Source of the DNA: Nothopassalora personata
Lineage: Eukaryota; Ascomycota; Dothideomycetes; Mycosphaerellales; Mycosphaerellaceae
Assembly: GCA_033816765.1 (NCBI GenBank)
Contig: CM066295.1
Span: 3,162,001-3,226,000 of the forward strand
DNA: 64,000 bases
Reading direction: 5' to 3'
The position numbers were made by a program, and so were the translations under genes. The notes beneath the pieces were generated by a model. That model did no database searches. It was not told where the DNA came from and worked only from the letters and a program-made list of their open reading frames with translations. Within the stretch, counting starts at the first letter, position 1, and each line of letters opens with the position of its first letter. Of this stretch, positions 1,010 through 18,502 are shown piece by piece.

Positions 1010-1134
1010 TACACTGCAATGCTCCTTTTACGTGGAAGAGAGACGGGGAGAAGAATCGATGTTTTGACATGACGTCGACGCGTTACACTCCGAGTGACCA
1101 CCGAGTAATCTCCCCTGGTGCCCTAGAAGTGGTA

Positions 1135-1338
1135 GTATCTCAATATTCACATTCGAGGTGTCGACATTCGAGGTGTCTACAATCCACGTAACGAGGTGTC
1201 TACAATCCACGTATCGAGGTGTCCACATTCGAGGTCTCTACATTCGAGGTATCTATAATCGACATTCGACATGCCGTGAACATACTAGGAGCCGCTAAAA
1301 CTGGCCAATATTAGCTGCTCCTAGTATGTTCACGGCAT
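1135..1338 (+). repeat. Left terminal inverted repeat of T1
   Basis: Made of short repeats CATTCGAGGTGTC and CGAGGTGTCTACAATCCACG followed by a palindrome around AACATACTAGGAGC. It matches the reverse complement of 17646-17853 over its whole length with scattered differences. It still contains many CA and TG dinucleotides, so it is less RIP-mutated than the interior. Confidence 0.9.
1271..1338. repeat. Palindrome P1 in left TIR
   Basis: ATGCCGTGAACATACTAGGA and its reverse complement flank a short centre (about 68 bp in total), so the DNA can form a long hairpin. Same motif as P2-P6. Confidence 0.9.
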
Positions 1339-1493
1339 AGTCATCCACATTATGTAACTAGATAGGACCTCGAATCTTAGTAATAATAATAACCTCTTTA
1401 CACGCCTATCCCTCTTTACACGACTATTACCGTTTACGAGCACCCGCACAGTAGTAGCGACCTACGAGAACACGAACACAACACATCGCTACT

Positions 1494-2063
1494 ATGCCTA
1501 TCGTCGCTAGCGTCCGCGGAAAGCTACCTATTAACCTCGAGCCATTTCGCGAAGAAATCGCTAACCTACTCCCCTACCGTACCTATCGCGATATTATCCT
1601 ATATCTACGCTACAATTGCGGCGCCTATATTACCCTACCTACCCTAAAGCGTAGACTCGAGTAATGGGGTATAAGTAAACTAAACATACGTACTAAGTTC
1701 GATAAATGGTAGGAAGCGCGACTACGTAGAAAGATCGAATATAACTTCTAGAGGTACTCTACGCTTAGTAATAGGACTATAGTAAGGATGCTATAGTAGG
1801 ATAGCTACACGGTAACGCTTAGGCAATACCGTCGTCTACGTAAGTCAATAGGCCTACTGCGACGTATACTACTAGAGAATAAGGAGGAAATTAAAGCTAC
1901 TATACGCGACACCCTTAAGGTAGTAATGTCGTCCGGTATAACATATAATAGTGGGTATCGTGCTATTGCGAACTACCTTCGTAGGAATAATCGATTCATT
2001 AGTAGGTACGTTGTCTCTCTTACTATGCCTATTACCCCCTATAAACATATAAGGAGTAGGTAA
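1494..2063 (+). pseudogene. T1 transposase, N-terminal part
   Basis: One frame from an ATG at 1494 stays coherent for about 180 codons apart from TAG/TAA stops that fit Gln or Trp codons changed by RIP. It begins MPIVASVRGKLPIN and contains EEIANLLPYRTYRDIILYLR ending near TLKRRLE, a helix-turn-helix-like segment resembling the Clr5-type N-terminus of fungal integrase-core transposases. A second segment, GYRAIANYLRRNNRFISR, resembles the next conserved block before the catalytic core. The frame runs into palindromic repeat DNA at about 2037. The core resumes at about 3110 in a different frame, so the gene is split by the repeat block or by an intron containing it. Confidence 0.65.
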
Positions 2064-3099
2064 CCTTCGCGGCTCCTCGTATGTTTAGTATACTACGCAC
2101 CGCCTCGCGTAACATACGCGTTATTCTACGCGCGTCCTTACGAGTCGCATCGCTAAAGCCTATAGTAGAGCCTATAGTAGAGCCTATAGTAGAGCCTTAT
2201 TCGTAGCGTAGTAACCGGCCGTTATTGTTAGAGTTCTCTCTATTCTCATTAGCCTACGGCGAAGAGTGTAGGAACACCGTTACTACGCCTACTAGAACGT
2301 CTATTACGCGTATAAAAGCGTAGGCTAATAAGAGCGCGAGAAACACCGCTAACTTCGTGTAATTATATGCTACTAGGGCGACTTACCCACGGTACAATAT
2401 ACCGCACCCTAGACTTCTAAGGAGCACGATACGCCCGCCCCTATACTTTCGAGGAGCACGATATACCGTACCCTAGACTTTTAAGGAGCACGATATACCG
2501 CACCCTATACTTCTAAGGAGTACGATACGCCGTACCCTATACTTCTAAGGAGCACAATACGCTCGTCCTAGACTTTTAAGGAGCACGATACGGTACGGTA
2601 AATATTCTAGGAGTACGATACCGTAAATATTCTAGGAGCACGATACCGTAAACATTTAAGGAGCATCGTAAACATTTAAGGAGTACGATACTACTACCGT
2701 GAACTTTTAAGGAGTACGACACCGTAAACATTCTAGGAGCACGACACCGTAAACATTTAAGGAGCACGATACTACTACCGTGAACTTTTAAGGAGCACGA
2801 CACCGTAAACATTCTAGGAGCACGATACCGTGAACATTTAAGGAGCACGATACTACTACCCTAAACTTTTAAGGAGCACGATACCGTAAACATTAAAGGA
2901 GCACGATATACTACTATAAACTTTTAAGGAGTAGAGCCGTCCGTATCGTAGCTATTAGCGCCCCGGCATCGTAGATGCTACGGTCTAAACGAGTGTATCT
3001 AAGCGCCTACCTCTAGATACCGTAGGGCACGGTATGCGTAAACATACTAGGAGTAGCTAAAATCGGCCGATTTTAGCTACTCCTAGTATGTTTACGCAT
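2037..3099. repeat. Palindrome-bounded repeat block inside the T1 transposase
   Basis: The block starts with an imperfect palindrome (AAACATATAAGGAG ... GCTCCTCGTATGTTTA, about 2043-2090) and ends with the perfect palindrome P2. Between about 2400 and 2940 lie some twenty imperfect copies of a 20-30 bp unit, typically AAACATTTAAGGAGCACGAT plus ACCGT, all in one orientation. Around 2160-2200 CCTATAGTAGAG is repeated three times. No gene is seen. It separates the two halves of the transposase. Confidence 0.75.
3034..3099. repeat. Palindrome P2, perfect 66 bp
   Basis: Two 33-bp arms, ATGCGTAAACATACTAGGAG... and its exact reverse complement, meet at CGGCCG with no spacer. The arms carry the same AACATACTAGGAG motif as the TIR palindromes. 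Confidence 0.95.
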
Positions 3100-3109
3100 G
3101 ATTTAGAGA

Positions 3110-4355
3110 ACTCGCTAACATTTCTATCTTATAGGGACCGCATCTACCGCATTGCCCGCGAGATTAACGCTACGCTATTTCGCGCCCGTAAGCTAAGGGA
3201 ACTAAGATTCTAACCCGCCTATAGTCGCCTAGTAGCTATAAGCTCGAATAATGTCTAGTCGATCGACGCCTATTATAAGCTTAAGCCATTCTTTAGTATC
3301 TAGATCTACGTCTATATCGATATGTTCTCGCGAATAATTATCTAGGCCTATATTAGTAACCTAGCTAAGATAAAGTTCTCTACGTTCTCGTAGTACCTTA
3401 AGGAGATAACTAAGAGAGGCTTTTAGCTAAGAGTCGTACGGTCTAATAAGGGTGTTAAGATAACGATACTTACGAACGCCTACCTTGAATTACGGGAACT
3501 ATTCGAAGGGTAACCTCTTAACTTCTCCTAGTGCTTCTAGTATACTATAAGCAAAGGGAATAACACCGTCGAGTACTAGAATAGCGAAGTCGCGAAGGGT
3601 GCGTTAAACCGAATTATAAGTTCGAGTATAGCTAACGCCGTTCTATTTAGGTGCGCTTAACACGTAGCGCGATATATTCGGCAAGATTAAGGATAAAGGC
3701 TAGTACGACCTAGATTGTAAGGCTGATCGTATAGCCTTCCTTATAGTATACATGCCTATTATCCGTACGACTATTACTAATTTTATTGAACACTAGAACA
3801 TATACTACGTACGGTACTAGGCTAACGCGGAGTCGCATTATTTAGGGACACTAGAGCTACTATATCGTTACCCTAAGCTATTCGGCGGAGCCCGCGATAT
3901 AGGTAGGCTAATCGACACTAACTATCTATAGATTTAGCACTAGTAGAACTACACGTAGCAATTCGACCTTAAAGCCTACTTACTGCCGGTAACACTATTA
4001 TAGTGTTAGAATGCCCTCGAGATACTTAACTTTCCCCGCGAGCTAGATGGAACTAAGCGCGGTAACGACCCTACGAATAGATCTGTCCGTATGTACTTCC
4101 TCGTATATCGTGAGCTAAGTCGGGCAATAGCTACGTTCCTATTAGGTAGTGGAGAGCTCGCTAAGTTTAAGCGGCTAAGAGACAGCGAGGAGCTATAACT
4201 ATCCGACCGCCTAAAATCTATGTTTACCGCTACTAACGAGCCGCTATAGACGACTAATATAGTCGTTGTCTATATCGCTATATCGCTACGCTAGTTAAGG
4301 GTTATTACTAGCGTGCCGAATAAACCCTAATCGTAATAGAGCTATATCGCACTTT
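3110..4355 (+). pseudogene. T1 transposase, integrase-like DDE catalytic core and C-terminus
   Basis: A coherent frame, broken only by TAG/TAA, carries the retroviral-integrase-like fold signature of fungal 'integrase core domain' transposases: SIDAYYKLKPF (first Asp, codon 3265-3267), then IYVYIDMFSRIII, RSNKGV at the second acidic position, and NTVEY with the Glu codon at 3571-3573. The second acidic residue is now Asn (AAT at 3445-3447), a GAT to AAT change. The C-terminal half, with DRIAFLIVYMPIIR and YRYPKLFGGARDIGRLID, fits the same family. It should have cut and joined the TIR ends. It is dead as it stands, because of many stops and the missing Asp. The family assignment rests on recalled motifs. 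Confidence 0.75.
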
Positions 4356-4396
4356 TAAATTAAACACCTTATCTTTATCGTTAACTATCTCTAGTT

Positions 4397-4456
4397 ATCC
4401 GCATCGATCTCATCCGCATCGATCTTATCCGTATCGATCTTATCCGCATCGATCCT
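4397..4456 (+). repeat. 15-bp minisatellite, four units
   Basis: ATCCGCATCGATCTT and close variants are repeated four times head to tail, just after the transposase frame ends. Confidence 0.9.
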
Positions 4457-4503
4457 ATCTACCGACGTTAAACATACCTCAATTCTATACTAACGATAGG
4501 TAT

Positions 4504-6636
4504 AGGTTTAAAGTAGGCGATAAGTTCTATACCGTGTACGGTAGCGAGAGGCTAGCTCCGGGCGACTCTATATTAAACCCTATAACGGACGATAACGCCG
4601 TAGCTTAAAGCAATCCGCTAGCGAGTAGTATACCAATAAGGACTGTATTAGCGACCGTATTAGGTGGTAGCCGAGCTAGGGCGTACGCTAGCCTAGAGGA
4701 CGTTTTTCATAACTTAGGTAGGGCCGAGAAAGAGAAGAAGAAACAGCATAAAAGCTAGGAAAGGCTAATCCCTAATACTATGTTCGATCCGATACATCCT
4801 AATACTCCGTAGCCTATAAAGAGGTACCTTCATTCGGATAATAAGGACAATATGCTTAAAGCCGGGTTATAATATATATCTCGTACGAAGGGTAAGGGTA
4901 AGAGTAAGTAGACCGTACGACCGGCGATACGATTTAACTACACCTTATTTACGGTTTCTATCTTATCGAATGAAGGCTCTCGCTTCCTAACTTATAGCGA
5001 GCCCGTTTAAATAGGTGTATAGCATATCTAAGAGTTCTAAGATGTCTTTATACCGATGTTCCGCTAGTAGCCCGAGCTCGATAGGCCTAAGTGGCTGTTT
5101 AAATATCTTATTAAAGAGGAGTACAATATATAAGAGATGATAGATAAGCTACACTACGCCTACTATCTTACCTAGAGTATTAATAGCCGTAGTAACTAGC
5201 CCGTACGTCTAAGGCCGTCGTTACTTAAGTCTAGCGAGATAGACTCGCTTAGCTATACATTTGATTATCCTCGAAGCGGCGTCTAGTGTCTAAAGCTTAT
5301 CGTTATCCTTATCCGGGAGGTTTACGAGGTCTTTAATAATAATAGCCTCGGTAAGGATACGACTAAGAAGAAGATAAACGAGAGGAGTGCTACACCGGAC
5401 AGTATTAGCGGCATACGTAACATACGTAACTACGCCGCCGAAGCCGAGGACAGCTTATTTATGTAGTAGGACGAGGACTTATAATCCGATAATAATTATC
5501 CTACATAGTTAATGTAGGATTAACCTACGGAACTAGTTAAACCGGCGCTATTATTACCTAGGAACTTTAGGGCTCCGCCCCTACTACCGTAGGAATAAGA
5601 GGCTATAGCCCGAGAAGTAGCATCCTAAGAGGTAGTAGATTATAAGGCTGCTTTTCCTATTAGTGACTTTATCGACGACGCTACCTTTAAGGCATATATG
5701 CAGGTAGGTAGACTCGAGTCGTTACTCTATGTAACGCCTCGTAATAGAGAGAGTAGCGCTATAGCAGCGAATGCTATAAAGAAGGTTATATAGAAACTAC
5801 TTAGGCCCCTTAAGTAGAATAATACTACTACATCTAGATCTAGAACTACATCTATATCTACATCTACATCTACTAAGAAACGGCCTACGAGCTAAGAGCT
5901 AGAGAGGTCGTTATCTATTAATAGTAGCAGTTCGTCTAGCCTAGCTAGTCTAGCTCCTATACTCCCGTAGGCGTAGCTACGCCTACGCGTATATAGCGAC
6001 TCCGATCTAGATGCCGAGTGCCTAATATATACTAATAGCTAGAATGATAGCTAAGTTATCCGGTATCAAACTATATACCGCTATTACATGTACCTAAAGT
6101 GTATATCTAGACTAGTCGCGATGTATACGAAACCTTTATGTCCCTACTATCGAGGAGATCTAGTACTAGACTATAGAGATCCGTTCCTACTATCGGCCTC
6201 GTAGCTAGGTAAAGGAGTTATAAGTAACATTAGAGCATCGTAGTAGGAAGCATCGTAGTAGGACGTTACATCGCAGTAGGATATTGCATCGTAGTAGGAT
6301 ATTATATCGTAGTAGGATGTTACATCGTAGTAGGATGTTACATCTTAGGCGATGCCGTTAGAGTAGGAGGCCGTAGCGAACCTAGAAGACGAGTTGTTTC
6401 GTAACTTTACGGCATTCGACGACCTATTAGATAATACTACCTTACGGCCGTAGTTAGAGTCGGTTTAAGGCTCTTAGTAAGACCCTCTACCGTAAGATAA
6501 TATACTATAGTAACACATACAGTAATAGGAGATCTAGCGGTAAGAGACCTAGTAGCTATAGCTACAGTAAGAGCCTATCGTATTGTAAGCAGTTATATAG
6601 CGGTAGTAGGAGTCTACCGAGGATAATATAAACTAA
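4504..6636 (+). pseudogene. T1 accessory ORF2, unknown function, Gln-rich tail
   Basis: A single frame can be followed for about 710 codons. Nearly all of its stops are TAG or TAA and fit Gln (CAG/CAA) or Trp codons hit by RIP. It opens near RFKVGDKFYTVYGSERLAPG and has a Lys-rich stretch (EKEKKKQHKS), an acidic middle, and a Ser/Thr-rich region (TTTSRSRTTSISTSTSTKK). The C-terminus has a tandem S-Q-Q-D repeat (6236-6350) and would be very Gln-rich if the stops are read as Gln. The last stop is a TAA at 6634-6636. I recognise no domain. The start is not determined; no ATG is clearly favoured. It may be a regulatory or DNA-binding partner of the transposase, but nothing in the sequence proves this. 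Confidence 0.55.
6236..6350 (+). repeat. 18-bp coding repeat (SQQD-type), about six units
   Basis: Units of the form TCGTAGTAGGATGTTACA follow each other inside ORF2. One unit retains CAG where the others have TAG, which shows directly that the repeated stops were Gln codons. Confidence 0.85.
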
Positions 6637-6904
6637 TAACTAACACGACGCCTAGCTAGTGCTTCGAGGGCTAATTAGATAGTTCCTATAGGCGCTACAT
6701 TAAGCTCGCTAAGGAGACTAAGATAACGTAGTAACAACCGCAAGACTAAGGGCTCTAAGAACTATAACGGTAGTAGGGGGTAGGCGAGTAGCGTGTTCTA
6801 TGTACTTTTGAGGAGCTAATATAGCGACGTTACTAATGCGATAGTATTAGTCGAATAATAGAGGCGTTTCTATAGCCTCGCGAGCTTCTTATTTCTCTAT
6901 AGAG

Positions 6905-7423
6905 CGGTAAACATACTAGGAGCACGCTATTTACACGTTTTAGACGTGCTCCTTATATGTTTACGGCTCCCTAGAAAATAAGGACTTCTCTCGATCTCGA
7001 ATGTGCCTATATCTTACGGCTCTCGCTATATAAGCTAGTCTAATTTCCCTTATACAGTCGTGAACATATAAGGAGCACCTTAAGGATGTAGCTTAAGGAT
7101 GTAGCTTAAGGATGTAGCTTAAGGATGTAGCTTAAGGATGTAGCTTAAGGATGTAGCTTAAGGATATAGCTATAAATATATAAGGAGTAGCTTAACTAGT
7201 AGTCGTGAATATATAAGGAGCACCTTAAGGACGTAGCTATAAACATATAAGGAGTAATAGTAGCTATTCGATAGCACCTACCTTGTAATATGTTGTACTT
7301 TATCGCTTACTCGCTTACTCGCCGGTACGCTTTATAGCGAGCTATTTCCTAATCACTTTATAGTAAACATATAAGGAGTACGTTAGATCACCTATCTAAC
7401 GTGCTCCTTATATGTTTATATTA
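6905..7423. repeat. Second palindrome-bounded block of T1 (P3, minisatellite, P4)
   Basis: P3 (6905-6967) and P4 (7363-7419) are hairpins with arms TAAACATAyTAGGAGCACG or TAAACATATAAGGAGTACG. Between them a 13-bp unit CTTAAGGATGTAG is repeated seven times (7079-7169), and single AACATATAAGGAG motifs occur near 7060, 7180, 7210 and 7240. No gene is seen. Confidence 0.85.
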
Positions 7424-7727
7424 TAGATACCGGGTTACCTATTGTAGTTACGTAACTACCTTATCGATAGTACAAGCCGCGCTCTAGGAGCTATTTCTTT
7501 ACACTTACTACTTTGACACCTCGACACTTCGACACTTCGACACGGACTTAATAGCCTACTTACACGGCTCCTAGTATGTTTATGTTACTAATCTTAAGTA
7601 ATAGCTTAAGAAACAGTATTACCGACTAGTACTTCGGCGTTTCTTAGCATTTATAGCTTGCTACCTATCCATTTATCGCTACCCTACCTTCTACACACTC
7701 CGGACACTCGATATAGTAATAGCGCAC
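7424..7727. other. T1 interior without a recognised gene
   Basis: RIP-mutated T1 sequence up to the Gypsy-A insertion point (TSD CGCAC at 7723-7727). It holds a triplet of GACACTTC/TCGACAC repeats near 7515-7540 and another CTCCTAGTATGTTTATG motif near 7565. Confidence 0.6.
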
Positions 7728-8114
7728 TATTACGGTTCGGTCTAAATGGCAGCCCCGACTAGACACACGAAACACTAATCACTTAGAAACACGTAATACT
7801 AATTATCTGGACGCACGTAACACTAATCACTTCACGGACTGATTAGTATAATTAGTATGCTTAGTAGGACTGATCAAGGTGATTATACTAAGCTATAGGC
7901 TCTACGCCGCGAATCTTCTTTATATTTAGGAACGCTAGAAACCCTTATGGTTCTAATACGTTTAACTTATGTTACTATCTCACTAATTGGAATACAACTC
8001 TTATTCCTATTATTCATCTTCGCTTAGCTTGCTTTAGCCTCTCTAAAGAATAATACCGCTACGTAACTTAACTTATCTCTCTTTTAAGACTAGCCCTAGA
8101 ACGAGATAATAACA
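7728..8114 (+). repeat. 5' LTR of Gypsy-A
   Basis: It starts TATTACGG (a TG end changed to TA) and ends AATAACA. It is more strongly mutated at CpA/TpG than the 3' copy. Confidence 0.95.
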
Positions 8115-8131
8115 CTTTAAACGCCCTTAGG

Positions 8132-9300
8132 ATGAGCGCTACTTAAGCAGCTAGTAGGGGAACACCCGCCCCCAGCGAAGTAGGAAGCATCCGCCGTGCG
8201 CCACCATAACAGACCACTACGAAGGACGATAAGTCTAATAACGATGACGAGCCTACTCTAAGGAGGAACGACGTTAAGGCTACTAAGCTAGACCTCTTCT
8301 ATGGAGATAGGGCTAAGTTCGACGACTAGATTAATTAGATGGATATGTATCTTATGTTTAACCTAGTCGATGCCGATAAAAGAACTATCTTCGCTATTAC
8401 GTACCTTCGCGGAAGTGCGTAGAACTGGATTAAACCTTACCTTAAGGAATACCTTGAAGGTATGGGACGATTAGACCCCACTGGAATGTTCAGGAGCTAC
8501 ACCCTTTTCAAAGAAAAGATGAAATTAATCTTTAGAACCTCGAACGAAGTCTAATAGGCTATACGAATCATTCAACACCTAAAGTAGAAGACGTCTACTT
8601 TAGAGTATGCCGCCAAATTCGAAGAATACGGACAAATTACCGGATGGGACTAGACGGCGTTAATAACTATGTTCCGACGTGGACTTAAAGACTCCGTTAA
8701 GGACGAGTTAATAAGACACGGGGGACGGATTACTAACCTCGAAGAGCTAATAAAGGCGTCGATTAATATCGATGACTAGCTCTAGGAACGACACTAGGAG
8801 AAGAGATACGACTCTAAAGTAGGAGGAATAGTAGGATACGCTCCGGACCGCAGACCCTTAGGAGGATACGTTACAAAGGGAGAATTCTTACGACAAAGCT
8901 AGCCCTACTATAGACTATAGCCAATAGAACTAGACGTTACCCAACGAGGACGGAAGATCGACAAGAGTAGGGGCTACGGAAAGCCCTTTAAAGGAAAAGG
9001 AAAACTCACATGTTATACCTATAGTAAGGAAGGCTATATAGCGCGAGATTGCCGCGGTAAAAATATAGTGCGCCGCGAGCAATTTAATATAATGCAACCC
9101 CGAACTAGTAAATCTAAGAGCAGCGTTGGATCTCGAGGAGATACCGACTATACTCGGAGAGTAGAGGAGAGAGCTAATAATAGAAGCACGACGCCTCTCC
9201 TAGACCCCTTAGAAGGACGAGGAGGATACTATAGGTAGTAAATGGTAGTCATTCCATTTAATGCGAAGAACCAACTACGACAGTTTAACATAATAACACG
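8132..9300 (+). pseudogene. Gypsy-A gag
   Basis: An ATG at 8132 opens a frame reading LDLFYGDRAKFDD, AITYLRGSA, NWIKPYLKEYLEG and FRRGLKDSVKDELI, the usual fungal Gypsy capsid pattern. A zinc knuckle appears near 9011-9052 as CYTYSKEGYIARDC, where two positions of CX2CX4HX4C read Tyr instead of Cys and His, both single RIP-type changes. Many TAG/TAA stops are present. The boundary with pol is not clear: the gag frame continues past 9240, but the polymerase is in another frame. Confidence 0.75.
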
Positions 9301-12300
9301 AAGAGTCGACTACGAGACCGAATCCGAGTCTCGAAATAGTTATAGAAGCCTTCATTAGCGATTCTGTTACTAAGACTCGTGTCAAATCCACTACGCCGCG
9401 AAATTAGGCGTAGGGTATTAGCCTTAGCAACTACGAGGAACCCTAGGAGCGACGTATAGGTAAAACGCTACGCTTAGAGAAGTAGACATCGATAAATCCT
9501 ACTTTAACAAAGATAGAAGTAATAAAGAAAATTAGGACCTAGGATGGAACGGATCATGGTCACTAGAACTATAAGAAGAAAGTTAAGAAACCACCGGGCT
9601 AGATACTATCGAGGAAGAACAGGATCCGGAAGAATTAAGCGAAGAAGATTCCTCCGAAGGAGAAGAGAGCGATACTAACGACGACAACGAACAACTTACC
9701 TTTACGGTAGATGCACCTAAGAAACTGTACGATATAATTATCTACCTATAAAGAAGGCACGAGGAATTCCTACCTAAGATAGGTAGACGAAGGAAGCTAC
9801 ATTCTATTAAGTTTAATAAGACACTCGACACCCTACGAGGCATAGCCTAGGGATACCCACTTATAGAAACAACCGAGAATCTAGTAACTACCGTTATAGA
9901 ACGACTACCGATAGGAAGCCGAATAACAGGAACCGGATATCTTACACCGTTAGGAACATTCGTATCGAATAAATTACGTAACATAGTGCAACACGTACGC
10001 GTACTCTACTTAGAAACGTAGAAGATCTAGGAACGTAATAGACTACAAGTGTAGACATAGGGCAACGGGCTATAGGTTCTAGCCGAAGCCTCTAGGCACG
10101 AAGCATAGCGAACTATATACCATTCGGGAAAAGAATTAGCTCCCTAGGAATAAGCGACCGGAGGGAGTTATGCAATACTTAGGCTTATGTATCGACATGG
10201 AACACAATTTTCTAGATACAAGCAATCGTTAACGGACACAAGACTAGTGTTATAATCGACTTAGGAGTAGCGGGGAATTTTATCTCCGAGTCTTTTACAA
10301 GAAGAAACGGGTTAGCTACCCTAAAGAAGAAATAGGGTTACGAGTTGATCGCGGTAAACGGATTATCGTTACCTAGCGTAGAATGGGAGACGATACTATT
10401 GCTACTAGCTATCTAATAGCACTACGAGAATATTACCTTAGATGTTACTAATATAGCTAGTTATAACATAGTATTAGGTATGCCTTAGTTAAGAAAGCAC
10501 AATCTAGTAATCAACTAGAGAAGAGGAGTACTTACATTTAGGGAATGCGATTGCGTTGTCGACATTCAGCCTACGTAGTAGTAGCGTTCACTAGTAGATA
10601 AGGCAAGGAAACAGCTAAACGAGATACAGCTTACGCCAACTAGAAGGACAAAAGAACCACCTTCGACCGGGATAGACACTAGCGTAGGGCCGCCGGGTTA
10701 CGAAGTTACTAGAAGTAATAGAAGTAACGCACTATCGAAGAATACTAACATCTTAGAGTTAAGTATTCCTAAGGAGTATCGTAAGTAGTCGCGACTCTTT
10801 AAAGAGGAGAGAGGCAAAACCGCCTTACCTAAGTACCGCCTATAGGATTATAAGATCAACATTTAGCTAGGGAAAGAGCCTCTATAGGGACCCCTATATT
10901 AAATGTCTAAGAAAGAGCTATAGACCCTACGAGAATAGCTAAAGGAGAAGCTAGCTAAAGGATAGATAAGAAGATCTACCTTAAGTGTAGGAACTCTATG
11001 TATGTTCGTTCTAAAAGCAAACGGGAAGTTACGACTCGTATAAGACTATAGGAAGTTAAACGAGATTACGATTAAGAACCGATACCCGCTACCTAACATC
11101 GAAGAAGCATAGGACAGATTAACCGGATCGGACTAGTACACGAAGATTGACCTACGAGATGCCTTCTATGCTATACGAATAGTAGAAGGAGAAGAATAGA
11201 AAACCGCTTTTAGAATAAGATACGGACTCTTCGAATTCTTAGTTATACTAATAGGATTAACTAACGTACCCGCATCCTACTAGGACCTTGTAAACGAAAC
11301 ACTTAGAGACCTACTCGACGTATACGTTATCGCCTATATGGACGATATACTAGTCTACATAAAAGAATCCCTATAGGAACACATAAAACAAGTCTAGGAC
11401 GTCTTCGAACGACTCACGCAATTAGGATTTAAGACGGTACCCGAGAAATGCGAATTCCACAAGAAAGAAGTTAAATTCTTAGGCTTCATTATTAGTACTA
11501 TAGGGATAACGATCGACCCTGCGAAGACATAGTTAATTAGAGAGTAGCTAGAACTAAAAACAGTTAAGGACGTACAATCATTCCTTAGACTAGCGAACTA
11601 CAACCGGAAATTCATTAAGGACTACGCGAAAATAGTAGTACTAATGACGATGCTTACGAGAAAGGGCGTTACTTAGAAATGAGGAAAGGAATAGACTAAA
11701 GCATTTAAGAAACTTAAGGAACAATGCGCTTTAGCCCCTACGCTTCGATTATTCGATAGTAGTAAGGAAGTCTACATCGAGACCGATGCGTCTAATATAG
11801 CAATAGGCGCGTATCTAACGTAGACACACGATAGGTAGAGACACCTAGTAGCCTATTACTCCCGGAAAATGACTATAGCGGAACAGAACTACGACATCCA
11901 TAACAAAGAGCTTCTAGCCATTATTACTACTATATAACATTAGAGAGTATATGTCGAGGGCCTACCGAAGTTAACGATTCTTTCTAACTATAAGAATCTT
12001 ACGTACTTTACGACGACGAAAGAACTTACCCGAAGGCAAGCCCGCTAGTCGGAGCTGCTAGGACAGTATAAGTTCGAAATTAAATATACTCTAGGACGAG
12101 AGAATAGCCGCGCCGACGCGCTAAGCCGAAGAAGCGACTATATAGAAGAAAAAGAACTAGTGCAACATAAGATATTAAAGACGAACCCCGACGGAAGTCT
12201 TAGTGCTAACATAAGAGAATTTAATAACATCGTACGGATATTAGGCGATAGGGACGAACAATTCCCTATATTGTAAGGAAAATACTAAGTACCTAAGGAT

Positions 12301-13985
12301 CGAGAAGAAGAATGCATACGATAACATTATAACGGACTAACTTATAGACACCCTAGAACTTTAAAAACAATGGACCTAATATAGCGTAGCTTCTCATTCC
12401 CATAAATGAGACTTAAGGTATTACGCTACATTAAACAATGCGTACACTACTAACGAAACAAGGCTACGAGACATGCAAAATACGGTCACCTACAGTTTAG
12501 GACACTACCGACGAAACCATAGGACGAAGTCATAATAGACTTTATTACGAAACTCCTACCGTTAAGAGATTAAGTTACGAAACAACTATACGACATAATA
12601 CTAGTTATAGTTAATAGACTTACGAAATACGCACACTTTATTCCTACATTAGAAACGTACAATTGTTACGGTTCGGATGAAGGACGGTGCAGGACGTGGC
12701 ATGGGGAGGAAGAATCAGAAGACACGAACCAATCGCTAGGAAGAGAAAGGGACCCCACGTCCGGGTCACGTGCACGACCGCGCGCTTAGTGCATGGTCGA
12801 ACACGACCGCAGAAGTAGCGTATGGACGTACACGACCACACGACCAGACGACCGGTCGAGTGGACAGACGGACATCTAACACCGGATGGCATACGAACCT
12901 CCTTTGTATTTAGGAACGCTAGAAACCCTTATGGTTCTGATGCGTTCAACTCATGTTACTATCTCACTGATTGGAATACAACTCTTATTCCTATCATTCA
13001 TCTTCGCTCAGCTTGCTTCAGCCTCTCCAAAGAATAATACCGCCACGTGACTTGACTTATCTCTCTTTTGAGACTAGCCCTGGAACGAGACAATAACAAC
13101 AATGTAGAGTAGCTCGGATACCTCGTACTAGATAGACTTATCCGATACTACGGATTCCCTTAAGCGTTTATAACGGATAGAGATAAGCTATTTATATTAA
13201 ACTACTAGAAGACGCTTATAGGAACGATCGGAATTAAACATAAGCTATTAATAGCATATTATCTGGAAACAGACGGACAAACCGAAAGGATGAATTAAAC
13301 GCTAGAACAATACCTACGACACTACATTAATTATGCATAAGACAACTAGGTCTCATTACTGCCAATGGCGCAGATTGCACTAAATAACCATAAATTAGAG
13401 ATAACTTTAACGACACTATTTTATGCGAACTTTAGTAAAGATCCTAACCTATTTAGAACACCTGGATCCCACCTATAAGCCGAAAGAGCAATCGTAACGA
13501 CGGATACTCTTAAGGAAGTGCATAAAGAAACACGCAAGGCGATCGAAGATACATAACATAAACTGTCTTAACAACGGTAGGACACGAGAAAAATGGCACC
13601 TCTGCTAAAAGAGGGGGATAAGGTCTATCTCCTTACAAAAAACTTAAGAATAAGAAGACAGACTAAGAAACTGGATCACGTTAAGGTCGGAACATTTTTT
13701 ATCGATAAAGTTATAGGACTAGTTAACTACCGCCTACGACTACTACTAGACGCAAGAATCTACCTAGTCTTCTATATCTCTAAGTTGGAACCCGCAGACG
13801 CCGAAACACCCTGCTAGGAGAGCTTCTATTTCGAACCGGAAGCAGAAAACAAATTCGAAGTCAAAAGAATCCTAGATAAGAAAGGTTAGCGATACCTTGT
13901 TAAATGGAAAGAATACGACGAATTAGAAAATACCTAGGAACTAGAAAAGAACCTACAAAACTGTTAATAAAAGATCCGAGAATAT
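9300..13985 (+). pseudogene. Gypsy-A pol (PR-RT-RH-IN-chromodomain)
   Basis: Protease is seen as IDLGVAGNFIS near 10258 (Asp-Leu-Gly for Asp-Ser/Thr-Gly). Reverse transcriptase includes KIDLRDAFYAIRI near 11140 and the catalytic AYMDDIL at 11332-11352. RNase H shows ETDASNIAIGAYL near 11780. Integrase has IIDFITKL near 12530 and is then split by the solo LTR at 12664-13098. It resumes downstream and ends in a chromodomain, FEVKRILDKKG..RYLVKWKEYD (13851-13920), the hallmark of chromoviruses that target heterochromatin. Most stops are TAG/TAA at former Gln/Trp codons. It is inactive. Confidence 0.85.
12664..13098 (+). repeat. Solo LTR (family E), clean, inside Gypsy-A
   Basis: 435 bp from TGTTACGGTT to AATAACA, flanked by the exact duplication ACAAT (12659-12663 and 13099-13103). 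CA and TG dinucleotides are intact, so it arrived after its host was mutated. Its last ~200 bp are closely related to the Gypsy-A LTR, but the upstream part is unrelated. A near-identical copy lies at 38560-38993. Confidence 0.95.
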
Positions 13986-14010
13986 TATAAGAAAAACAAA
14001 GACCTATAAG

Positions 14011-14568
14011 TTAACTAGTAGGGAGTAGTTCGGGTACCTCCTAGAACTCGTTACCGAGACCCTTAATAGCACCCTATGTGCCTAGTGACAAGTTGAGAGC
14101 TAGACCCTTATAAGGGATATCCGAAGGAAGTAAAGAAGCCTCTTCTATCTCCTACTCCTCGATCTCCCTTTCCTTAACGGAAATCGCCTCCTCGGCACGA
14201 CGATCTACTAGATCTATCTACTAACGTAAGCGCTCCTCGCGCGCGCGAGTAATCTTTAGATCCTCGAGAGCCTTCTTATAAACCCGCATCGCCTCCTCCT
14301 AAGCGGACCGAGACTCCTAGATTTTCTAACGAAGACGAGCCTTCTCATCTACTAACCTCTTAAACTCCGACTAAGTTACTCTTACATCGTACCTTTAGCC
14401 GCGACGAAGACACTTACTACACTTCCCGGAACGAATGTGCACCTTGCACACGCGACTATGCTTTTCACACGTTAAGCATTTCTTAACTATAACTTCTCCC
14501 GCGGATTTAACGAACTCGTAGAGACGGCGGCGACGGATAGTACTAGAAGGGCGTTAGTAGATAGGCAT
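14011..14568 (-). pseudogene. Antisense Zn2Cys6-like ORF of Gypsy-A
   Basis: Antisense to the element, an ATG at 14568 opens a frame that stays coherent to a TAA at 14011-14013 (185 codons). About ten internal TAG/TAA codons lie at places that fit Gln. The N-terminal half has C-x2-C-x6-C-x8-C-x2-C-x6-Y, with the last Tyr (TAC) one RIP-type step from Cys (TGC): KCLTCEKHSRVCKVHIRSGK followed by CSKC. A long charged, probably helical region (EEAMRVYKKALEDLK and similar) and an acidic end (NEF.EVPELLPTS) follow. It aligns along its length with the intact antisense frame of element C (33142-33702), including VC(K/R)VHI(R/K)SG(K/R)CS and YDVRVT / CDVRVT. The cysteine spacing fits the GAL4-type binuclear zinc cluster, so it may be a DNA-binding regulator. 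Function is inferred only. Confidence 0.75.
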
Positions 14569-14659
14569 CGTAAAGGGAAGAAGCCATACGCAAATACATA
14601 GAGGATACCGTTCGTTATAAGTAAGCTTAAGGGACTAAGCTAGGCCAGAAGGGGGATAG

Positions 14660-15046
14660 TGTTACGGTTCGGTCTAAACGGTAGCCCCGACTAGATACAC
14701 GAAACACTAATTACTTAGAAACACGTAATACTAATCATCTAGACGCACGTGACACTAATCACTTCACGGACTAATTAGTGTAATTAGTATGCTTAGTAGG
14801 ACTGATTAAGGTGATTATACTAAGCTATAGGCTCTACGCCGCGAATCTCCTTTGTATTTAGGAACGCTAGAAACCCTTATAGTTCTAATACGTTTAACTT
14901 ATGTTACTATCTCACTAATTGGAATACAACTCTTATTCCTATCATTTATCTTCGCTTAGCTTACTTTAGCCTCTCTAAAGAATAATACCGCTACGTGACT
15001 TAACTTATCTCTCTTTTGAGACTAGCCCTAGAACGAGACAATAACA
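14660..15046 (+). repeat. 3' LTR of Gypsy-A
   Basis: It starts TGTTACGGTTCGG and ends AATAACA, the same length as the 5' LTR. It keeps TG and CA at several sites where the 5' LTR has TA. Confidence 0.95.
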
Positions 15047-15051
15047 CGCAC

Positions 15052-15509
15052 GCTCGTTACATACCCGGGATTACATAAGTTTACTATCGTAGCGTGTTTC
15101 GACGGCCTTAGGATACAATCTCTCGAAGACCTACTTATTAAAGAGCGCTAAGCCTAGTAACAATAGTAGGTGAATTGTTAGATAATAGCTAGACAATATA
15201 ACTTCACACATCGCAGATAATACGATAGGCACAAGTCGGGTACAATAGAGGCGAGAGATTAACCTTCGAGTAGTCTTCCTCTTTTACTTTCTCTTTCTTT
15301 CCTACTAACTTATTATATATACCCTCTTATAACCATCCGTAACATTACTATAAGCATAAGAACTACACTAACGACATATAAGTAACGATACCTCGCTTCT
15401 TTACGCCGGGCTCGGCTAGACCGAGCCCTCCCTTCCTCTTCTCCCTCCTCGAGTATATCTTTAGTCTTTAGTCTTTAGTCTTTAGTCTTCGGTCTATAGC
15501 TCTTAAGCT
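15052..15509. other. T1 interior upstream of ORF3
   Basis: RIP-mutated, with no coherent frame recognised. It holds a TTTAGTC repeat (about five units, 15458-15492) just before the ORF3 ATG. Confidence 0.5.
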
Positions 15510-15992
15510 ATGCTTAAGAGTAGGCTGCTTATTAAGATTAAGCAAGGCTAATAGTTTTATAGTAGCGACTTCTTCTACTACGATAGCTCGCTACAAGTTC
15601 TAATTCCGGCCTTATTATTTACCGTAGTATGCTAATATGTCTTTAGCGACTTCACCCGTGCCGTCCGCGCCCGCGCTAGGGCTCGCGCGACCGTACTATT
15701 AAGACGCTCCGCTACCTTTACCCGTGCCCGTAAGTAGCTCGCCTCTAAGGTCGCTCGTAAGTCTACTAGTAGTAAGGCTCTACGTAAGTAACTTGCCTCT
15801 AAGGCCGCTCGCAAGTCTACTAGTAATAAGGCCCTACGTAAGAAGCGCGCCTCTAAGGCTACTCGTAAGTCCGTACTATTACCTACCGCGCCTACCTAGT
15901 AGTAGTAACAGTAGTAAGATGCCGCTCCGGCTTTCGAGCTATAAGGTAAAGGCCTAATTATATACGTCTTTAGTCTTCTATTCCTAAGTTAA
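15510..15992 (+). pseudogene. T1 ORF3 with reiterated histone H3 N-terminal tail
   Basis: An ATG at 15510 opens a frame (MLKSRLLIKIKQG) that reaches an Arg/Ala-rich segment and then, at 15720-15873, repeated H3-tail-like sequence: ARKSTSSKALRK, a TAA, LASKAARKSTSNKALRK and RASKATRKS. Ascomycete H3 reads STGGKAPRKQLASKAARKS over K9-K27. The differences fit RIP: ACT-GGT-GGT to ACT-AGT-AGT (Gly to Ser twice), CCA to CTA (Pro to Leu), CAG/CAA to TAG/TAA (Gln to stop). The A-R-K-S motif of K9/K27 appears twice, with a third variant TRKS. A run of about seven Gln codons or RIP-made stops and DAAPAFEL follow. The globular histone fold is absent, so this is not a histone gene copy. It could bait or recruit H3-tail readers or writers (inference). 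The true 3' end is uncertain because the final TAA may also be a changed Gln. Confidence 0.7.
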
Positions 15993-16029
15993 GCTCGACT
16001 TAAGCTCTCGACTTAAGCTCTCGACTCGC

Positions 16030-16671
16030 GAAGAATGTATACTAACATTATACTCTAGCTAAGACGACGACGACTTCGGCGGCGGCGGCGGCGACACTAG
16101 TGGCTTCTAGGTAGATAGCGACACTAGCGGCTTCTAGGTAGATAACTTTAGTAGCGGCGAGGACTTATAAGTCTTATGTCGCTAAGCTTTCGATAAGTAT
16201 TAAGTAGTCCTTAAGCGAGTACTAACTATGTATACGTAGTAACACTAACTATAACGAGGGCGCTACCGGCCTATCTTCTACTCCTACGTAAGTCTTACTC
16301 TTAGTAAGCTTAGCTTATAATCTTAACTCCGCATCGATCTTAAGAACTTATCGCTAATATGTTACTATAGTACTACTAATACTAACACTAGTAGTAGTAG
16401 TAGCAACACGACTACGCCCTCTACCGGCGGTAGAAACACTACCGGTACGGCACCTAAGATTACTATACGTCGCCGCGGCGACCGTTTTGTAAATGTCGGC
16501 GCTAATAATAGCATCCCTAGTCGCCCTAAGGGTAAGCCTAGTAAGTATCGCCGGCTAAATGCTAGTACGCCTATGTCTATATCGGACGAGGTACGTCTTT
16601 CTATTTATACGAGCTAATATAGTATCTTAACTCTTAGCTTCTTAAGACTTAAGGTGTTAATGTCTTCTTAA
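16030..16671 (+). pseudogene. T1 possible ORF4 or second exon of ORF3, low complexity
   Basis: A frame different from ORF3 reads DDDDFGGGGG, repeated DTSGF.VD, FDKY, a Ser/Thr/Asn-rich stretch, then PKITIRRRGDRFVNVGANN and RPKGKPSKYRRLN. Stops are mostly TAA/TAG. I recognise no family. It may be joined to ORF3 by splicing, because the two are separated only by 40-odd bases and a frame change. Downstream (about 16880-16960) a short frame, PCTRYRRFGHTSRC, looks like a damaged zinc knuckle, but the spacing is not standard. Confidence 0.35.
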
Positions 16672-17109
16672 CTCTTAACTTACAATACTACTTAAGGTTA
16701 ATAGCTAACGTATTTATAGCTATAGGAGAGGGAGATTAGTCGCTTAGGGGGTACTAGCTCGGGTCTAGCGTTAAGTAACCTCGCGAGGTAGGCCTTAGCC
16801 GGTAAGGTTTAAGATACCAACGCCGGTAAGCTACGCTTACTACTATGCCGTCCCTATAAGGGTACGCCTTACGAGGTAGTATGTCGTGTTACTATAGGTA
16901 GTGTCGGTCCGTGTACTCGCTACCGTCGTTTCGGGCATACTAGTAGGTGTGTTTAGATTATAGGTACTAGGTTGTTTTTTCTACTATATCGTCTTAAGTG
17001 TATTATAACGACAATACTACCTACGCTATACGGCTCTCTACTTAATCGTTCTTGTCTTAGTCTTAATCTTATATATCTATGTTCTATCTTCGATAAGATC
17101 TACTTAAGA

Positions 17110-17645
17110 CATTAGGGCTACTCCTTAAATGTTTACGGTGTCGTGCTCCTTAAAAGTTTAGCATCGATATATTAGAGCTACTCCTTAAAAGTTTACCGTC
17201 TAATACATTCGAGCTGCCTAAGAATAGCGGTAGTGCTCCTAAAAAGTTTATAAGTGTATAAACATATAAGGAACAGCGAGGACTAGCAGCTCCTTATATG
17301 TTTACGGTTAATAAGCAGCTCCGTAGAAGTTTACGGTTAACAACTTAAGTAGCTCCTTATATATTTACGGTTAATAACTTAAGTAGCTCCTTATATGTTT
17401 ACGGTTAATAACTTAAGCAGCTCCTTATATGTTTACGGTTACTAACTTAAGCAGCTCCTTAGAAGTTTACGGTTAAGTTCACGGTTAATAACTTAAGTAG
17501 CTCCTTATATGTTTACGGTTAATAACTTAAGTAGCTCCTTAGAAGTTCACGGTTAATAAGTAGCTCCTTAGAAGTTTACGGTCAACAAGCAGCTCCTTAG
17601 AAATCCACGATTAACAACCTAAGCTGCTCCTTAGAAGTTTACGAT
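17110..17645 (-). repeat. Right subterminal repeat array of T1 with palindrome P5
   Basis: About fifteen imperfect copies of a ~35 bp unit, CTTAAGTAGCTCCTTATATG plus TTTACGGTTAATAA, in the opposite orientation to the left array (2400-2940). A hairpin P5 (17256-17306, AAACATATAAGGAACAGC ... GCTCCTTATATGTTTA) interrupts it and P6 (17646-17708, in the TIR) ends it. Repeated subterminal motifs in inverted orientation at both ends are what transposase-binding sites look like, but binding is not shown. Confidence 0.8.
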
Positions 17646-17853
17646 GCTATAAACATACTAGGAGCAGCTAATTTTAGCCAATTTTAGCGGCTCCTAGTAT
17701 GTTTACGGCATATCGAATCTCGAATGTCGAATTTCGAATGTCGAATGTAGAGAGCTCGATTGTAGATACCTCGACACGTGGATTGTAGACACCTCGTTAC
17801 GTGGATTGTAGACACCTCGGATGTCGACACCTCGAATGTGAATATTGAGATAC
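17646..17853 (-). repeat. Right terminal inverted repeat of T1
   Basis: Reverse-complement partner of 1135-1338, with the same order of modules: palindrome on the inner side, then CGAATGTCGA-type repeats, then CGTGGATTGTAGACACCTCG repeats, ending GAATATTGAGATAC. Confidence 0.9.
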
Positions 17854-18502
17854 CTACACCTCCAGGCTTCCGCCTCTCCTTCACCTTCGCGCAAGTCAGC
17901 ACAGATATGTACGACCGCAAGGTGAACATCAAGGAGATGGAACGCATTGTCTACTATGGGCAATCCACCTGGCGGCCGCTGAACAGCCTATTTCTCACCT
18001 CGCTGATAGTATAGAGCAGACGAAGCTCCATGGTATACTTCGGTGTGGCCAAGGCGTACAGTTGACAGCTGAAGTCACCCAGTGGACGCCCGATTACAAT
18101 GCGATTTCTCAGGTCGACATGCTATCCACATGTTCAGCCTCCACTCCGATAATAGATACTTGCTGTCAGCTATGCCGAATATGGTACGTGGTGTTTGTTA
18201 CACAGCATGATAGGCCCCCCCAAAAGCTCGCTTATTATGCCGCATAGCTGAGAAGTCTCGTACTGGCTCTTGCTTTACAGTGGCCTGGTCTTGTACCCGG
18301 AAATCTTGGTGACAATCATAATAACGTAGGTACGCGCTGTCCGAGCTGTGCTGTACCACAGACCCTACCTGACGGTGGCGGTGGCAATGTCAGCTACAGC
18401 CGTCAGTACATGATAGCTCATGATTCTTCGGCTTCAGCTCGACCGTTTCGCTCCCCTCACGTCAAAATCGAGATACCAGTCATTTGTGAGCGGTTCATTT
18501 CA
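17854..18502. other. Intergenic, no supported gene
   Basis: Normal, un-RIP-mutated base composition. A 50-codon open stretch right after the T1 end (LSFTFAQVSTDMYDRKVNIK, about 17873-17932) could be a remnant of a host coding region disrupted by T1, but I recognise nothing. Probably also the promoter of the next gene. Confidence 0.5.

Follow-up and report, generated by a model that had tools for sequence, protein, structure and literature searches.

Histone mimics of the ARKS type, found in viral and cellular proteins, are single short motifs. Histone H3 sequence is also carried by DNA transposons, and the closest described systems are hAT elements of Pseudocercospora, Cercospora and Sphaerulina, which have transduplicated histone H3 (PMC6710886), and an hAT element of Pyrenophora tritici-repentis, which bears H3L, an open H3-like gene with ESTs (PMC3538342). 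In the former group, the captures consist of spliced coding sequence and 94% of the copies resemble exon 3 only (PMC6710886). Such captures do not by themselves explain why transposons of this fungal class carry H3. Other captured or element-encoded proteins have been associated with resistance to silencing: fungal DNA transposons carry TET/JBP dioxygenases, captured DNA-modification genes for which a role in resisting silencing has been proposed (PMC12730594), and the VANC proteins of Arabidopsis VANDAL elements exert anti-silencing on their own family via tandem repeats (PMC10398659). The first-pass annotation of the locus reported here, which recognized a reiterated H3-tail mimic in a transposon, stated that no transposon-encoded H3-tail array had been described. 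With respect to H3 this was too strong, because hAT elements carrying it had been published (PMC3538342, PMC6710886); with respect to tail arrays it held, as none was found in the available portions of those sources. Among the hits listed in searches of one open library, outside which most papers of subscription journals lie, no H3 array reduced to the tail was seen in any mobile element, and the one paper joining histone mimicry with a transposable element was off topic by its listing.

The window, that is, the whole stretch of DNA analysed, comprises 64,000 nucleotides of Nothopassalora personata (GCA_033816765.1, contig CM066295.1, positions 3,162,001 to 3,226,000) and contains one copy of an element referred to as T1. 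With a high level of confidence, T1 and its diverged relative T2 are integrase-type terminal inverted repeat (TIR) transposons with a seven-exon gene that has captured and duplicated the tail of histone H3 without the histone fold and specifies a protein of about 300 residues. Like the hAT cases, they are Dothideomycete TIR DNA transposons with H3-derived sequence and RIPed copies (PMC6710886). The hAT elements of that report have a hAT transposase and 8-bp target duplications, whereas T1 and T2 are of integrase type with 5-bp duplications and carry only a duplicated exon-2 tail, which is placed in an accessory gene of several exons that is intact in one copy. In both hAT reports the fold was part of the capture (PMC3538342, PMC6710886), whereas no PF00125 match was obtained at the T1 and T2 loci among the best candidates scored; likewise, H3L has a globular domain in an hAT element and no tail array was seen in the available text (PMC3538342), whereas T1 and T2 have the tail array and no fold. 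The tail-only H3 gene is real and well formed, and it occurs in two or more divergent families of integrase-type transposon. The features of the element are as follows.

1109 to 1113: left 5-bp target duplication, TCTCC
1114 to 17874 (+): T1 DNA transposon; ends common to copy D, with TCTCC directly outside both
1114 to 1341 (+): left terminal inverted repeat region
1536 to 1679 (+): Clr5 domain at the start of the transposase (Pfam PF14420, 22.6 bits against a cut-off of 22.3)
3253 to 3560 (+): integrase-like transposase core, RIP-damaged, read from the translation
6016 to 6150 (+): RING-finger-like frame, with tyrosine at several expected cysteines
7728 to 15046: nested LTR element of 7.3 kb, foreign to T1
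17641 to 17874 (-): right terminal inverted repeat region
17875 to 17879: right 5-bp target duplication, TCTCC

The DNA search of the genome returned 33 matches at 20 loci, all of which were examined. These comprised seven T1 copies, six of them whole across the 483-base stretch 15510-15992 and one split by an insertion (L007/L008), one intermediate copy (L022), eleven T2 copies (L023-L032 and L034) and one divergent copy, L033, which is little RIPed but decayed and lacks most of exons 4-6. The counts refer to one genome and are lower bounds. T1 and T2 share 61-63% identity where their DNA aligns. H3-tail sequence was present at all 20 loci, divided over two pieces in the split copy. The array occurs in four lineages: T1, L022, T2 and L033. 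Further exon matches elsewhere in the genome were obtained by protein search; at two of those places, L039 and L040, all frames lacked an ARK[STP] tail. The RIPed T2 copy L026 (C9:3117500-3126500) is situated on the contig of the window, some 40 kb upstream.

T1 had been described at first as a giant transposon, which proved wrong. The nested LTR element is missing from its site in all six other T1 copies, where position 7727 joins 15047, and subtracting it leaves 9442 bases (~9.4 kb) as T1 proper. The insert has terminal direct repeats at 7730-8029 and 14662-14961. It is itself RIPed, with a zinc-knuckle-like frame at 8921-9238 that gave no Pfam match, and a third LTR-like repeat copy is located at 12894-13098.

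The inverted-repeat arms of T1 pair 1122-1247 with 17741-17866 (91%) and 1252-1341 with 17641-17730 (86%), and arrays of short-motif repeats are located near both ends. The target duplication was 5 bp in all three copies with both ends read: TCTCC in the window, ATAAT on either side of copy D and CCCAG on each side of the L034 copy of T2. The right end of T2 was set by nine right ends, and the left end of the L034 copy by analogy with T1. The T2 inverted repeats (L041:6182-6563 and L034:5747-6086) are mostly short tandem repeat, one frame of which repeats ACMPVCLY.

The Clr5 score of T1 was obtained by reading through stops as X, and the partial piece of the T2 counterpart that was scanned remained below the cut-off at 15.7 bits. 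The short T1 piece of the integrase-like core gave no Pfam match alone; its T2 counterpart matched PF24764 (rva_4) with an E value of 5.2e-13, while the general rve model was under its cut-off (E 0.16). The D, D and E motifs of the transposase were recognised by eye, and the integrase query had no match among PDB sequences. No hAT transposase match was obtained in the T1 and T2 pieces scanned. A DDE integrase-like transposase and a 4- or 5-bp duplication characterize Ginger2/TDD elements, and both features are present here; at the N-terminus, where the Ginger2/TDD definition names a zinc finger of Gypsy-type integrase, a Clr5 domain was observed in T1. IS3EU elements differ in their 6-bp duplication and TAYGG termini, as against the 5 bp and CCTGG... 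observed here. Between the transposase and the H3-tail gene, T1 and T2 alike have the RING-finger-like frame. It gave no Pfam match in T1; the T2 counterpart (L034:2069-2923), which has a single in-frame stop in L034, gave a read-through zf-RING_2 match with an E value of 8.9e-6 (26.3 bits against a cut-off of 27.3).

The H3-tail gene was modelled from L034 (locus C5:4801661-4802975), in which a frame of 305 codons is open across seven exons and six canonical introns. Its donors are, in order, GTATGT, GTAAGT, GTATGT, GTAAGC, GTAAGT and GTAAGT, and at the acceptors AG is preceded by CTAAC or CTAAT. The corresponding gene in the window is organised as follows.

15388 to 15452 (+): exon 1, with ATA as start codon; placed by alignment with L034 and by phases
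15563 to 15592 (+): exon 2, acceptor gctaatagttttatag; placed by alignment with L034 and by phases
15647 to 15961 (+): exon 3, holding the H3-tail array, acceptor atgctaatatgtctttag; placed by alignment with L034 and by phases
15729 to 15873 (+): H3-tail array, with ARKS, ARKS and TRKS sites spaced 18 residues apart
16059 to 16166 (+): exon 4, acidic and glycine-rich
16240 to 16287 (+): exon 5
16371 to 16590 (+): exon 6, basic segment, matched at 50% identity in a six-frame search with the L034 model
16726 to 16956 (+): exon 7, C-terminus with Cys/His, including the stop codon

T1 and L034 agree in their seven exons and intron phases, which identifies an element gene rather than the stray fragment of an H3 pseudogene that the first-pass annotation had named as a refuting alternative; little-mutated natural copies answered the question for which it had suggested a de-RIPed consensus. 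The T1 gene contains 14 internal stops, each TAA or TAG, and its read-through protein could be aligned, with gaps, to that of L034 from end to end. Three of the six T1 donors are non-GT (ACAAGT, ATACGT and ATAAGT); judged by comparison with L034, these and the start-codon change look mostly like the result of RIP. In both proteins a short N-terminus is followed by the H3-tail array, a Pro/Ser- or Gln-rich linker, the acidic and Gly-rich exon, a Thr/Asn/Ser stretch, a basic segment and the Cys/His C-terminus, and the array is set in a low-complexity, probably disordered stretch.

No histone core follows the tail, as had been noted at the outset: PF00125 had nine matches in the genome, none of them at these loci among the best candidates scored, and no histone match was obtained for the L034 model against Pfam. 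The whole L034 model retrieved 759 proteins at E <= 0.1, and the 120 of these that were listed cover 9-20% of the query and have histone-fold Pfam domains. The C-terminal part (L034 residues 165-305) gave 180 candidates among 5.8 billion proteins, none with E <= 1, and a sub-threshold match to PF12511 (DUF3716; E 0.048, 14 bits against 22), a domain for which no literature was found. Among viral contigs, 58 stretches matched a pattern and none was confirmed as a relative.

Frame 1 of 15510-15992 contains, in translation, RARK, a stop, LASKVARKSTSSKALRK, a second stop and LASKAARKSTSNKALRKKRASKATRKSVLL, and the tail was therefore found where it had first been read, in the same frame in six copies spanning the whole stretch, the window copy among them. 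The units of the array are RK-stop-LASKVARKSTSSKALRK, stop-LASKAARKSTSNKALRK and KRASKATRKS, with two ARKS sites and the TRKS variant as originally described, and the two 54-base units are 89% identical to each other. A single stop had been mentioned; it exists as the second of two in the array region, one of which is replaced by a Q codon in L005. The upstream part, 15510-15646, had been included with the tail but consists, by comparison with L034, of two introns and a 30-base exon.

The captured sequence was compared with host H3. The L034 tail agrees with host H3 residues 7-30 at 22 of 24 amino-acid positions and, at the DNA level, at 65 of 72 bases, confirming the likeness on alignment, and five of the seven codons that differ are synonymous. 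The L034 product also retrieved histone H3 among PDB sequences by phmmer (E 1.9e-6, best stretch residues 33-64); this value and the DNA identity rule out chance likeness. Host H3 almost repeats itself every 18 residues (A7-R-K-S10 and A25-R-K-S28). In the array S28 is coupled to T11, a junction absent from H3, and the array is therefore a duplication at the natural 18-residue period of H3. The host gene has an intron within codon 8 and another following exon 2, and all captured codons, including an extra upstream copy of 18-28, can derive from exon 2. Because no exon junction is crossed, DNA capture suffices, and capture by retroposition, raised in the first-pass annotation, is not needed and was dropped. 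The captured piece is host-type H3 exon 2, about residues 17-32, duplicated at its own period. Viral and cellular ARKS mimics share a short H3-like motif in a non-histone protein, which the L034 product also has; here, some 28-48 residues were captured from an H3 gene and duplicated.

Differences within the array had been attributed to RIP transitions, and the site counts bear this out. The six T1 copies vary at 37 sites (20 C/T, 14 A/G and 3 transversions), and 24 of the 34 transitions lie in RIP context (CpA or TpG) even though just 5 of the 125 C's in the window copy have A next. That the copy before RIP was closer to H3, as also proposed, is evident from the little-mutated L034 (KHTSKAARKSTGGKAPRKKLASKAARKPAP) and L033 (KHTPKAARKTTGGKALRKQLAFKEARKSIL). 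Every T1 copy read and ten of the eleven T2 copies are RIPed, so the gene gives no protection from RIP. No stop falls within the array of the ten RIPed T2 copies because K occupies positions at which T1 has Q, and all eleven T2 tails have ARKP instead of the second ARKS. Along the L034 copy, apart from the left terminal repeat, it is the H3-tail gene that shows the mildest RIP index. The gene (L034:4162-5476) is stop-free there, while the transposase pieces read (L041:6895-8500 and the start of L034) contain five in-frame stops; no fully intact element was therefore found, L034 being the least damaged T2 copy.

Conservation of the tail was assessed by counting transversions in the tail and in introns 1-2, since RIP makes transitions only. 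Tail transversions were rarer in T1-L034 (5/83 against 26/102, p 0.0003), T1-L033 (5/83 against 22/102, p 0.003) and L022-L034 (7/83 against 22/110, p 0.03); the difference was not significant in L033-L034 (6/84 against 18/117, p 0.08), and the counts were 6/83 against 11/95 in T1-L022 and 9/83 against 19/110 in L033-L022. When all differences in the tail were considered, codon position 3 was the most variable and position 2 the least in six of six pairs, with position-3 tests giving p 0.03 for T1-L034, 0.008 for L022-L034 and 0.21 for L033-L034. These p values are nominal and the lineage pairs are not independent; the T1 alignment is poor over exons 6-7. No such coding pattern is seen in the adjoining linker, and the tail is more alike than the introns and linker in T1-L034, L022-L034 and L033-L034. 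Together, the third-position variation and the rarer tail transversions argue for selection on the peptide. Repeated exchange with host H3, or repeated capture, could mimic this signal because host H3 is itself constrained.

The same comparisons bear on whether the tail is read in another frame. If exon 3 were translated in the frame shifted by one base, beginning at an ATG (MSIASIP... in L034), the H3 likeness would be a DNA relic. That frame is open for 130 codons from stop to stop in L034 and has few stops in RIPed copies, and linker position 1 of the H3 frame is the most variable in five of six pairs, with a tie in the sixth. It also has stops in T1, however, reads across intron 3 and disrupts the phase linking the remaining exons, and the coding pattern of the tail in all six comparisons belongs to the H3 frame, making this explanation highly improbable.

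Alternatively, the gene may hold a functionless H3 DNA fragment, as in transduplication by other elements. Capture of H3 by transposons recurs in Dothideomycetes (PMC3538342, PMC6710886, as far as their available text goes), most copies in this genome are dead, and L039 and L040 show no ARK[STP] tail. A mere fossil is nevertheless unlikely given that the tail diverges less than introns and linker, that its third positions vary most, that the frame is intact in L034 with phases kept in T1, and that T1 has three ARK sites where other lineages have two. Loss of the fold, with retention and duplication of nothing but the tail, suggests that the tail is the useful part; tail-only capture also makes the question of H3 carriage testable with short peptides.

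The mode of action preferred here is that of an element-local bait for H3 readers or writers. On its own this mode is tentative, possible rather than probable; taken together with the identity of the element, it forms the best explanation as a whole and is given not quite an even chance. Based on the Cys/His pattern, the C-terminus is a possible nucleic-acid binder and would probably bind the repeats near the element ends. H3-like tails held there would serve as bait for writers and readers of H3K9/K27 methylation (KMT1/DIM-5, HP1 and PRC2), which would be titrated or mis-seated on a non-nucleosomal tail, and the element's own chromatin would be less well silenced as a result. Because it has no histone fold, the protein would not be expected to enter nucleosomes in the manner of H3. 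The genome offers as candidate partners a single Pre-SET match, a single chromo-shadow match and three loci for DNA methylases. The stronger proposal is that of a selected, modular H3-tail decoy (two ARK sites in T2, three in T1), which would draw the H3K9/K27 silencing machinery away and would be the first such substrate mimic known in a mobile element; it is doubtful but possible. If the bait reading is true, mobile elements can resist silencing through substrate mimicry as well as through enzymes (TET/JBP) and DNA-binding factors (VANC). TET/JBP is likewise a captured gene in fungal DNA transposons but is an enzyme, as opposed to the putative substrate mimic here (PMC12730594, available text). 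For VANC, an anti-silencing function has been shown and no H3-like tail was seen in the available text (PMC10398659); the H3-tail gene may resemble it in possible mode alone.

The H3 tail is an import signal, and the captured tail might accordingly act as a nuclear-import or general basic nucleic-acid-binding peptide of which only the lysines and arginines matter. L034 and L033 share all K and R inherited from H3 but differ at S, P and A positions, although K/R survival in RIPed copies says little because the codons AAG and CGN do not in themselves contain a target for RIP. Such a role is somewhat unlikely, as non-basic residues are also among the 22 of 24 retained in L034 and exon 6 already supplies another basic segment.

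A methylated tail could instead bind HP1 or another reader and steer or hold the transposition complex in a chosen chromatin compartment. Retroelement integrases with a chromodomain represent the mirror-image strategy, and the carrier transposase here is of integrase type. Insertion flanks were un-RIPed in 13 of 15 cases (GC 0.51-0.58), the two RIPed flanks belonging to T2, a count without a genome-wide base rate that covers five flanks from three T1 copies and ten from nine T2 copies, only copies with the end pattern found being included. The stretches on either side of the window copy have a GC of 0.52-0.53. Heterochromatin targeting, as first suggested, is thereby disfavoured; the flanks do not speak against other compartments, and tethering in general is considered quite improbable in comparison with the local bait.

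Another open frame, unrelated to this gene, contains a near-perfect N-terminus of H3 (DMARTKQTARRSTGGQPP...) at L037:614-967 (-), C5:4979400-4981000. The frame downstream of this N-terminus gave 61 candidates in the protein search, none with E <= 0.01. The open frame with the H3 N-terminus was matched at three places, the others being C5:5010775 and C35:7859, and the L037 and L038 copies are identical over 700 of 700 bases.
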